Assembly: GCF_026616195.1 (NCBI RefSeq)
Contig: NZ_JANHDH010000001.1
Span: 1,240,001 to 1,304,000 of the forward strand
Direction of reading: 5' to 3'
Source: Haloarchaeobius amylolyticus
GTDB lineage: Archaea; Halobacteriota; Halobacteria; Halobacteriales; Natrialbaceae
Length of the DNA stretch: 64,000 nt
The position numbers and the translations under genes are program-made. Under the pieces are notes generated by a model. The model saw only the letters and a program-made list of their open reading frames with translations, had not been told where the DNA came from and did not search any database. Below are positions 44,068 to 47,415 of this stretch, one piece after another (the first letter of the stretch is position 1; the number at the start of each line of letters is the position of its first letter).

Positions 44068-45120
44068 ATGCCCTGCAGCCGACGGTCCCTCCTCCGGACG
44101 ACCGGGCTCTCCCTCGCTGGTGGCGCCCTCGCGTCACTGAGCGGGTGCATCGGTGAGTCGTTCACCTCCGACGGGGGCGGCACGACCGACGACCCCTCGA
44201 CCGATACCGGGACGGCAACCGACACGACGACCGACGCGTCGGACCGACCCGGGTCGACCGGGACGCCACCCGCGCTGGCGCAGTGGCTCCCCTCGCCGGC
44301 CGACTCACCGTACCACGACGGCTACGGCGTCGCGTACCACGACCTCGCCGCCATCGAGGCCCAGAAGGAGGTCCTCCACGAGAACGCCCACGAGCGCCTG
44401 CTGACCGAGGCGTCGCGTGCCAGCCGGGTCAAGGCGCTCGACGACTACGACCTCGGGCCGGTCGATGCCGCGATGCGGTTCGGTCTCCCCGGTATGCAGG
44501 TCGTCCTCGGCTCGTTCGACACCGGCGCCGTACGGGACCAGCTCACGGGCGTCAGGGGGACGTACGACGACGGCGAGGAACACACCGGCACCCACCTCGA
44601 CCGCTACCGCGGGTTCGACCTCTACGACACGGGGCCCGTCCTCGCCGTCTCCGCGGACGCCATCGTGACGACGGGCTACACGCCCGAGGAGGAGAAACGG
44701 GCCTTCGTCGAGGCCATCCTCGACGCGAAGGCCGGCGAGACGGACCGGTACGCCGACGCGAACAGCTACGTCGGGGCGTTGCTCGGCCTGGTCGACGACC
44801 CGCACGCGCTGACGTGCTACCCGGAGGCGATGGACGGGTCGACGACCCGGTGGGCCGACGGGCGTTCCGGCAGGCTCAGGTCGTGGACCTTCGGGTCGGA
44901 GACGACCGAGTTGACCTGCGCGTACACCTACGCCGAGGCCGAACAGGCCAGCACCGAGCAACTGGCGTCCCGCGTCTCGGCCGACCGTTTCGAGCCCTAC
45001 GACGGTCTCGAGGTACAGAAGAACGGAGAGATGGTGTGGACGACCGGGACGCTCCCGACGAACGAGTTCGACTACCTCTCACCCGGCGGTCCGGGCGACG
45101 GCGTCCACACGTCTCGCTGA
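44068..45120 (+). CDS. Tat-exported lipoprotein of unknown function
   Basis: 350 residues. A Tat motif SRRSLLR (4-10) precedes a hydrophobic stretch and the lipobox LSGC (Cys27), so it should be a membrane-anchored exported protein. A Thr/Asp-rich linker follows (30-70), and the rest appears to form a single domain with no known signature. TATA-like ACTTAT lies about 28 bp before the ATG. Lone gene, convergent with the Nif3-like gene. Confidence 0.8.
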   Translation: MPCSRRSLLRTTGLSLAGGALASLSGCIGESFTSDGGGTTDDPSTDTGTATDTTTDASDRPGSTGTPPALAQWLPSPADSPYHDGYGVAYHDLAAIEAQKEVLHENAHERLLTEASRASRVKALDDYDLGPVDAAMRFGLPGMQVVLGSFDTGAVRDQLTGVRGTYDDGEEHTGTHLDRYRGFDLYDTGPVLAVSADAIVTTGYTPEEEKRAFVEAILDAKAGETDRYADANSYVGALLGLVDDPHALTCYPEAMDGSTTRWADGRSGRLRSWTFGSETTELTCAYTYAEAEQASTEQLASRVSADRFEPYDGLEVQKNGEMVWTTGTLPTNEFDYLSPGGPGDGVHTSR

Positions 45121-45165: not shown

Positions 45166-45939
45166 TCAGAGCCCGGTCGGCACGTCGAAGAAGGTCGTCT
45201 CCAGGTCCTCGTCCCACTCCTCGACCCACGACTGGAGGTTGCGCACGCCGAAGGTCTCCGTGGCGTAGTGGCCGGCGAGGACGACCGTGAGCCCGGCCTC
45301 CTGGGCCTCGTGGTACGTCTTCTGTTTCCCCTCGCCCATCACGACGGCGTCGACCCCCCTGGCGGCGGCCTCGTCGATGTAGTCCGAGCCGTCGCCGGTG
45401 ACGATGGCGACGTGCTCCAGTTCGTCGGGGCCGAAGTCGAGCACCTGCACGGGCTGGCCGCCGGTCGAGAGCTCGACCTCGAGCGTCTTGCACAGCTCCT
45501 CGGCGCTCTGTGGCTCGGGGAGGCGACCCTGCTGGCCGGCGTGTTCCGGGCCGACCTCGCCGAAGGGGGCCCGGTTCGCGAGGTCGAGCAGGTCGGCGAC
45601 GCCGGCCGCGTTCCCGAGGTCCGGGTGACCGTCGAGGGGCAGGTGCGAGACGTACAGCGCCACGTCGTTCTCCACGAGGGGCGCGATGCGGCCGTAGTGG
45701 CGGCCGGTGACGCGCTCGATGCCGCCCCAGGAGATGCCGTGGTGGACGACCATCGCGTCGGCGTCCCACTCCGCGGCCATGTGGAACGTCTCCTCGACCC
45801 CGTCGGTGCAGAACGCGACCCGCTCGACATCGGCCTCGGCGGGGCCGACCTGCAGGCCGTTCGCGCTGGCGTCGAGGCTCGCCCAGTCCTCGGTCCGTAG
45901 TTCCTCGTCGAGTCGGTCGCAGAACTCGGTGAGCTCCAT
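45166..45939 (-). CDS. Nif3-like dinuclear metal centre protein
   Basis: 257 residues of the NIF3/DUF34 family. The metal ligands are visible: DAMVVHHG near the middle of the N-terminal half (about 60), YVSHLPLDGHPDLGN, and VVLAGHYATE near the C-terminus. Family members bind two divalent metals; the biochemical role (possibly GTP cyclohydrolase-like or a hydrolase) is unsettled. The family start at ATG 45939 (MELTEFCDRL) is preferred over the frame to 46047. Confidence 0.88.
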   Translation of the reverse strand: MELTEFCDRLDEELRTEDWASLDASANGLQVGPAEADVERVAFCTDGVEETFHMAAEWDADAMVVHHGISWGGIERVTGRHYGRIAPLVENDVALYVSHLPLDGHPDLGNAAGVADLLDLANRAPFGEVGPEHAGQQGRLPEPQSAEELCKTLEVELSTGGQPVQVLDFGPDELEHVAIVTGDGSDYIDEAAARGVDAVVMGEGKQKTYHEAQEAGLTVVLAGHYATETFGVRNLQSWVEEWDEDLETTFFDVPTGL

Positions 45940-46071
45940 AGCGGACCAACGACCGCCGGCGGCTTGTACGCGGCGGTTCCCTGCCACCCTCAGTGTCGTG
46001 GGCCGCCCCTCAACTGGGCGGGCGGCGTAGCCTGTCGTGTTCCACACCGGACCGAACCGAGGTGAGACAGC

Positions 46072-46164
46072 ATGGGAAAACTCAGCAAGGCGATGCGAGC
46101 GTGGCGGCGGTTGCCGCGACGCGTCAGGCGACGAATCAAGCGGAAACTGAAACGGCTGACGTAG
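46072..46164 (+). CDS. Predicted 30-residue highly cationic peptide
   Basis: ATG 46072 to TAG 46164, 30 residues with 15 Arg or Lys (MGKLSKAMRAWRRLPRR at the start). GAGGTGA precedes the ATG by about eight bases and fits a Shine-Dalgarno site. A peptide so basic is most unlike the acidic haloarchaeal proteome. It could bind RNA or DNA, or a membrane. It lies divergent to the Nif3-like gene and just beyond the end of the agmatinase gene. Its size means that only the RBS and the composition support it. Confidence 0.45.
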   Translation: MGKLSKAMRAWRRLPRRVRRRIKRKLKRLT

Positions 46165-46227
46165 GGGACGTGACGCCCCGTCGGCCGGTCGTGCCGTCGA
46201 CTTCTCTCCGGCAGTGACGAACGGTAC

Positions 46228-47037
46228 TCAGCGCGAGGCAGCGTCGGCGTAGACGAACTCGCGGAGGAGCTTCCCGCCGAGTGCCGCGGCCTGGCCGTCG
46301 TCGCGGTCGTTGACCTCGACCACGTCGAAACCGGTGACCTGTCCGGACTCGCCGAGTGCGCGGATAACGTCCCGCATCTCCCGCGGGGCGAGGCCGAAGG
46401 GCTCCATCGTCCCGGTCCCCGGCGCGAACCCGGGGTCGGCCCCGTCGATGTCGACCGAGAGGTAGACCTCGCGGTCGCCGAGGTCGGGTTCCCAGTCGGC
46501 CACGTCTTCGGGTGGGACGACCGTCACGTCGGCCTCGGCGGCGCGGTTCCACTCCGCCTCGGAGCCCGTTCTGGCACCGAGGACGATGGCCTCCTCGGCG
46601 ATGTCGAGGACGTGCCTGGTCACGGTCGCGTGGCTCAACTCGTTGCCGTCGTACTCGGCGCGGAGGTCGAGGTGGGCGTCGAGACAGACGAACACCTCGG
46701 GTTCGACCGCCCGGACGTTCGCGAGCGTGATGGTGTGCTCACCCCCGAGCAGGAGGGGTATCGCGTCGTCCCAGACCGCGTCCCGGCAGACGCCCTCGAG
46801 GTAGTCGAGGTACTCTTCGGCGTCGTCCCAGGCGCGGACGTCGCCGTGGTCGTGGACGTGCAGGTCCGAGAAGTACTGGTCCGTCCGGTGGTCGTAGTCG
46901 TCGTACGTTTCGGCAAAACGACGGACGCGGTCCGGTCCGAACCGCGTCCCCGGTTGGAAGGTCGTCGAGACGTCGAGTGGAGCCCCGACGACCACGTAGT
47001 CCGAATCGTCGCGGTCGGCGCGGGCTCCCGGGAACAT
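46228..47037 (-). CDS. speB: Agmatinase / deoxyhypusine-type ureohydrolase
   Basis: Arginase-family enzyme, 269 residues. Mn-binding motifs present: GGEHTIT, DAHLDLR and SVDIDGADPGFAPGTGT. It hydrolyses agmatine-type guanidino compounds. The stop of aIF5A abuts this ATG directly (TAG then ATG), so the two are coupled. In haloarchaea, agmatine is attached to aIF5A and an agmatinase homolog then completes deoxyhypusine; the neighbourhood strongly suggests that role, which is inference for this gene. Confidence 0.92.
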   Translation of the reverse strand: MFPGARADRDDSDYVVVGAPLDVSTTFQPGTRFGPDRVRRFAETYDDYDHRTDQYFSDLHVHDHGDVRAWDDAEEYLDYLEGVCRDAVWDDAIPLLLGGEHTITLANVRAVEPEVFVCLDAHLDLRAEYDGNELSHATVTRHVLDIAEEAIVLGARTGSEAEWNRAAEADVTVVPPEDVADWEPDLGDREVYLSVDIDGADPGFAPGTGTMEPFGLAPREMRDVIRALGESGQVTGFDVVEVNDRDDGQAAALGGKLLREFVYADAASR

Positions 47038-47415
47038 CTAGACGATCTTGCGCTGGGCGTCGAGTTCGAGGTACTCGAGTTCGTCGTCGGGCGAGACGTC
47101 GAGGTCCGCCGGGATGGACATCGAGAACGTCTCGTACGTCTCGAGGTCCATGACCTGGGCGACGGTGTCGGACTCGACGGAGACGATCTGGCCCTGCTTT
47201 CGCTCGATGATGGGGACCCAGCACTTCGCGTCGACCGGCTGGGACATCGAGCGCTTCTTGCCGTCGAAGACGCCGACGGCCTCGACGCGGGCCTTCGCAC
47301 TGCCGTGCTTGCCCGGTTTGGCCGTGGAGTAGTGGTTGATCTTACACGCGGCGTCGTCGATCATCACGTAGCTACCCTCTTGGAGGTCACGAACTTCCTT
47401 TTGCTCTTTAGCCAT
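47038..47415 (-). CDS. eif5A: Translation initiation/elongation factor aIF5A
   Basis: 125 residues, an SH3-like domain followed by an OB-fold. The modification loop [12 protein letters not shown] places the hypusine Lys at residue 36. Required for translation of stalled motifs. First gene of a two-gene unit with agmatinase. TTTATACC (47439-47446) lies about 26-30 bp before the ATG, which makes the message leaderless. Confidence 0.97.

Follow-up and report, generated by a model that had tools for sequence, protein, structure and literature searches.

Does the intergenic region between the nif3-like and speB genes of Haloarchaeobius amylolyticus contain a protein-coding gene that has been overlooked, and what might its product do? 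The region lies within a 64,000-nucleotide stretch of DNA, here called the window. The first-pass annotation had drawn attention to a 30-residue ORF with 15 basic residues behind a GAGGTGA sequence. Re-translation confirmed this description. The ORF at 46072 to 46164 (plus strand, stop codon included) encodes the peptide MGKLSKAMRAWRRLPRRVRRRIKRKLKRLT, which contains 15 Lys or Arg among its 30 amino acids and neither Asp nor Glu, and a Shine-Dalgarno (SD) sequence, GAGGTGA (46059 to 46065, plus strand), is located 6 nt before its ATG. The micro-ORF occupies a 288-nt gap that extends from the start of the nif3-like gene (45939, minus strand) to the stop of speB (46228, minus strand). Since spurious Arg-rich frames are frequent at the G+C content of the window (68%), we compared the micro-ORF with the ATG ORFs of 20–60 amino acids on both strands of the whole window, taking the longest one per stop codon. 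Among these 145 ORFs, it alone reached a K+R content of at least 40%, the runner-up having 34%, and it was one of two whose SD match was 6 nt or longer and spaced by 4–9 nt. Both its composition and its SD sequence are beyond chance within the window.

For comparison, we assembled 61 distinct members of 30–42 amino acids from loci L071–L089 and L092–L162 and from the window, deduplicated by coding plus upstream DNA; they are related and not independent sequences. In the resulting alignment, termed A2, 56 distinct peptides including the window copy occupy columns 1–30 free of gaps. Five residues are invariant in these 56 sequences (M1, K3, W11, P15, and I22) and L14 is near-invariant. A core of the form MxK...W...P...I starting at the ATG of a frame of 30–42 amino acids is thereby shared by the window copy and 55 others. 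The K+R content ranges from 32% to 53% across the 61 members. Very small haloarchaeal proteins have likewise been described for Haloferax volcanii, where the available text of PMC10716476 deals with micro-proteins of less than 70 amino acids, zinc-finger ones among them. Unlike these, the present family has no Cys zinc site, because Cys is absent from all 61 members.

The substitution pattern argues for translation of this frame. In 426 pairs of related sequences, pN/pS was 0.30 in the coding frame, and the other two forward frames gave 1.20 and 1.90. Substitutions numbered 14982, 12096, and 27549 at the first, second, and third codon positions, respectively, with the third position being highest. 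Of the 61 members, 49 match the SD sequence exactly over at least 5 nt within 22 nt upstream, compared to only 12.9% of control stretches taken from further upstream. Comparison among relatives shows that 46072 to 46164 encodes a protein of a haloarchaeal family of microproteins with 30–42 amino acids and about 45% K+R, and that its frame, judged by these substitutions, is under purifying selection and not a chance ORF.

Alternatively, what is conserved could be an RNA that acts in cis or as an antisense transcript, with the ORF present by accident. This explanation is largely refuted by the same data and appears extremely improbable: substitutions cluster at the third position of codons, and among the forward frames only the coding one has a low pN/pS. 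Hairpins with a stem of at least 6 bp are present in the leaders of 22 of the 61 members, compared to 7.6% in shuffled sequences, which speaks for an RNA element. However, the leader folding energy is hardly below that of shuffles (mean z of –0.66), the leader of the window copy forms a hairpin of no more than 4 bp, and no Rfam match was obtained for positions 45900–46300 of the window. The stem sequences of the hairpins, which lie within 60 nt before the ATG, differ by member (e.g., L076, L080, L085, L112, L113, and L145). They could possibly serve autoregulation by the peptide.

The genomic neighborhood of the micro-gene is conserved as well. Its divergent upstream neighbor, 132 nt away, is the nif3-like (DUF34/NIF3) gene at 45166 to 45939 (minus strand; Pfam PF01784, E = 8e-57). 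Convergently oriented downstream is the agmatinase-like gene speB at 46228 to 47037 (minus strand; Pfam Arginase PF00491 and NCBIfam TIGR01230), which is adjoined by the gene for aIF5A, the eIF5A homologue, at 47038 to 47415 (minus strand; Pfam IF5A-like_N PF21485, E = 2e-14). The order nif3(←) micro-gene(→) speB(←) is found in 44 of the 61 members, i.e., the window and 43 of the 60 others. A further 11 retain one of the two neighbors (nif3 in five cases, speB in six; some flanks are short), so that nif3 and/or speB accompany the micro-gene in 55 of 61 members. Neither gene occurs in the flanking DNA examined of the remaining six, some flanks again being short. Beyond speB, aIF5A is also conserved in the comparison loci. 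The usual place of the family, as shown by comparing these loci, is the nif3/speB/aIF5A locus. Together with sequence conservation, frame-specific purifying selection, and the conserved SD sequence, this synteny lends good support to the earlier claim of a real micro-gene that had been overlooked.

According to the available text of PMC5178350, H. volcanii has an essential agmatinase-like gene that is found in a cluster with aIF5A, and its product has been proposed to play a role in the deoxyhypusine modification of aIF5A. The neighbors of the micro-gene point to this aIF5A deoxyhypusine pathway; as evidence for a pathway the linkage is weak, because speB and aIF5A are encoded on the other strand. 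Two further features of the neighborhood were noted. In many loci (e.g., L120 and L147), a GTTAAG box with the sequence GCCACCA, read by eye upstream of nif3, lies about 20–30 nt from the nif3 start, an arrangement that looks like a leaderless nif3 promoter and is perhaps shared with the micro-gene. In the window, positions 44068–45120 encode a 350-amino acid protein with a lipoprotein-like start and no Pfam match.

The occurrence of the micro-gene is patchy among haloarchaeal families. A search with the single peptide yielded at least 51 genomes of the order at E ≤ 0.05, three of which (G032, G273, and G278) were dropped as partial; this leaves at least 48 of 392 genomes, i.e., the window's own and at least 47 others, whose match starts at residue 1 and reaches residue 27 or beyond. 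A profile of 20 members matched at least 45 genomes and, after G046, G329, and G340 had been dropped, at least 42 of 391, including the window's, from residue 1 to at least residue 30. Profile searches by family covered f1, f4, f5, and f6. The peptide was found in at least 15 of 18 genomes of f6, at least 20 of 170 of f5, and at least 15 of 146 of f4, the family that includes Halocatena (placed in Haloarculaceae). Within f1, the family of H. amylolyticus itself, at least one of 125 genomes gave a full-length profile match, namely the window. The first-pass annotation had named conservation in related haloarchaea as one check of its claim. Relatives do exist across haloarchaeal families; conservation is strong in the other families, but almost none is seen in that of H. 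amylolyticus. Because of this patchy distribution, the peptide is no core component of translation.

Weaker matches do not extend the family. At E ≤ 1, the single-sequence search matched at least 60 of the 125 f1 genomes including the window's, and the best other match among those listed reached 57% over residues 4–24 (E = 0.018). Some of these other matches carry internal stops, and we take all of them to be chance. At E ≤ 0.01, the profile search returned at least two of the 125 f1 genomes, the window's and G046; the latter match is partial (10–30), lies inside a 63-amino acid frame (E = 0.0016), and was likewise taken as chance. In a phylum-wide set of 294 genomes, some of them from the order itself, at least five matched: four from the order and G741, whose partial match (11–34) inside a 535-amino acid frame (E = 4.7e-4) was also regarded as chance. 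No credible member from beyond the order was present among the matches listed for these 294 genomes. A strict DNA pattern searched against named genomes recovered 22 stretches, all with haloarchaeal titles: Halomarina, Haladaptatus, Haloarcula amylovorans, Halegenticoccus, Halogeometricum limi, Halogranum, Halobium, Halalkalicoccus, and seven Halobacteriales MAGs. The collected member closest to the window copy differs from it at 21 of 84 nucleotides.

The nif3 gene is far more widespread than the peptide. It is present in at least 121 of the 125 f1 genomes, nearly all of which lack the peptide. We examined 118 of the 121 nif3 loci found (G035, G040, and G090 were left out): in 20 of these, the sequence read also contains speB, and among the 20 the window's alone has the peptide. 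In the sister genome G005, nif3 and speB are linked across a 159-nt gap that contains no ORF for the peptide.

Conversely, some copies of the micro-gene are found away from the usual locus. In five loci, nif3, speB, and aIF5A are all unmatched within about 10 kb. Two plasmids of Halocatena salina carry copies (NZ_CP096020, 227427–227525, and NZ_CP096021, 315944–316042) with identical peptides, and no gene is listed at either place in the incomplete gene tables. Next to these copies, the DNA is similar to the speB end (53% over 30 residues and 47% over 47 residues). In the same comparison, the speB of L143, a locus of the same genus that has kept the usual arrangement, reached 78% over 58 residues. 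We read the plasmid copies as a copied stretch in which the speB end has probably decayed and the peptide has stayed intact, which would mean that the micro-gene matters on its own. For a third displaced copy in this genus, L144, no credible speB end was detected (a 12-residue match at chance level, E = 4.6). Four other displaced copies, L165–L168 (G442, G375, G499, and G502), share about 120–230 bp around the micro-gene. Their flanks are shared in part, with a stretch of about 80 bp common to all and longer blocks between some pairs, and three of the four contain a GTTAAG box. Of seven ORFs that flank two displaced copies, Pfam identified one as a universal stress protein, one as a cytochrome P450, and one as an HTH_10 regulator; a fourth matched DUF5795 below threshold, and the other three had no match. 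No tRNA genes were detected next to seven loci that carry displaced or reference copies.

These observations bear on the main rival to the role that we propose below, namely that the peptide binds a protein: its basic amphipathic helices would dock on an acidic haloarchaeal protein and thereby modulate it, with agmatinase, aIF5A, and Nif3 as examples of such a partner. The proteins of halophiles are acidic, the linkage to nif3, speB, and aIF5A is conserved, and the invariant W11, P15, and I22 together with L14 suggest a protein surface. Against this stand the five loci without any of the three genes, the two Halocatena plasmids, and the much wider spread of nif3. On balance, we regard a protein-binding peptide as rather unlikely.

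What form the peptide might take was predicted with AlphaFold2, which placed helices at residues 3–12 and 16–29 (mean pLDDT 82.8, pTM 0.31). The model suggests two short basic amphipathic helices joined at Leu-Pro, of which the Pro is invariant. Hydrophobic positions are predicted at 4, 7, 8, 11, 14, 22, 26, 29, and 30, the rest being basic, and seven of them (4, 7, 11, 14, 22, 29, and 30) are hydrophobic in at least 96%. The hydrophobic moment of residues 4–14 was reached by less than 10% of shuffles in 48 of the 61 members, that of residues 16–30 in 56 of 61. The amphipathic, helical character suspected in the first-pass annotation is therefore borne out as far as hydrophobic moment, AlphaFold2, and position-specific conservation go, all of them computed. 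The choice between Lys and Arg is nearly fixed at several positions: among the 56 peptides, Lys occupies position 3 in 56, position 6 in 48, and position 25 in 49, and Arg occupies position 12 in 52, position 16 in 49, and position 20 in 48, with K/R interchange at positions 19 and 27. Such fixed identity is only partly informative, since Lys and Arg rarely replace each other where their usual codons, AAR and CGN, differ by two bases.

The family matched no entry in any library searched. Searches with all 56 peptides gave six Pfam families with one or two members each (best E = 0.047), one NCBIfam family with two members (best E = 0.062), four PHROGs families (best E = 0.0024), and no PADLOC match. 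The 20-member profile matched a single PDB entry, a 14-residue stretch of an aldehyde dehydrogenase (E = 1.8), and the 56-member profile matched three chains, at best a 17-residue stretch of mL78 (E = 0.42); both were rejected. Across Pfam, NCBIfam, PHROGs, PADLOC, and PDB, there was no credible relative and no homologue of known function, and Foldseek found no match for the predicted fold. One peptide searched for phage origin gave no phage match, and no viral contig carries the micro-gene by the strict exact pattern. None of the literature titles and abstract openings listed describes the peptide; supplementary tables may still list it.

Amphipathic cationic helices with a single Trp would also suit a peptide that acts on membranes, either inside the cell or after secretion, perhaps as a toxin-like or antimicrobial agent. 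The best PHROGs match could be taken in this sense, as nine of the 56 members weakly match "RelE-like toxin" (phrog_1213). However, the window copy covers only positions 10–31 of this 88-position profile, over a basic stretch (E = 0.025), and in view of this partial coverage we rejected membership. Position-specific conservation that includes K3 and P15, the usual locus beside housekeeping genes, and the missing PADLOC match also argue against membrane activity, as does the medium itself: high salt screens charge attraction. We consider this explanation unlikely.

In size, extreme basicity, and helical form, the peptide resembles the archaeal and eukaryotic ribosomal protein eL41 (eS32), which is 25–37 amino acids long in the available text of PMC7005279 and is likewise strongly basic, largely helical, and easily missed by annotation. 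The generic features of this type (about 25–40 amino acids, highly basic, helical) are found in our family at 30–42 amino acids. The same text describes an eL41 pocket on the 30S subunit lined by h27, h44, and h45, and bS22 as a 33-residue actinobacterial ribosomal protein at the eL41 site; bS22 and the mitochondrial mS38 both occupy this site and, unlike the peptide, belong to bacteria and mitochondria. The peptide could accordingly be imagined as a haloarchaeal counterpart of eL41 or a tenant of the same pocket. However, the family profile scores eL41 within the range of shuffles (168 and 267 of 500 shuffled eL41 sequences reach its score), hhalign gives a probability of 0.4%, the profile's PDB matches at E ≤ 10 include no ribosomal eL41, and Foldseek returned none. 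Homology to eL41 was discarded on the grounds of shuffles, hhalign, and PDB profile search. In contrast to eL41, the micro-gene family has an invariant W11 and P15, two predicted helices, and a patchy occurrence within one order. Archaea can do without eL41, since Methanosarcina acetivorans lacks it according to the available text of PMC12605026. We consider an eL41 counterpart or pocket tenant very unlikely; that the peptide works like eL41 is possible.

Our best guess, to which we assign a probability of about 40%, is that the peptide acts in trans as an accessory RNA-binding component of the translation machinery. We infer action in trans because six of the 61 members lack nif3 and speB in the flanking DNA examined and because the identical Halocatena plasmid peptides lie beside an apparently degraded speB end. 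An RNA-binding, translation-linked role is favored by the aIF5A-pathway neighbors and by extreme basicity in an acidic proteome; near-fixed K/R identity and a position close to the aIF5A and agmatinase genes make RNA or translation the more likely field of action, short of proof. In such a role, the basic face of the peptide would run along the phosphates of rRNA or mRNA, and W11, L14, and I22 would form the face that docks on the surface of a protein or RNA. The peptide would be useful in some lineages only and often be lost. A more specific version is highly doubtful: the peptide would be an optional part of the ribosome or translation apparatus in particular haloarchaeal lineages and would occupy the small-subunit pocket of eL41, bS22, and mS38 without being their homologue. 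If true, the peptide would be a further independent tenant of this site, gained and lost by species.

The micro-gene is a clear example of a conserved gene of 30–42 codons without a match in the family libraries searched, and it occurs among organisms with otherwise acidic proteins. The A2 profile can be used to annotate the family. The usual place of the micro-gene beside the aIF5A and agmatinase-like genes makes a role in translation directly testable in the named carriers, Haladaptatus, Halogranum, Halogeometricum limi, Halomarina, and Halalkalicoccus.
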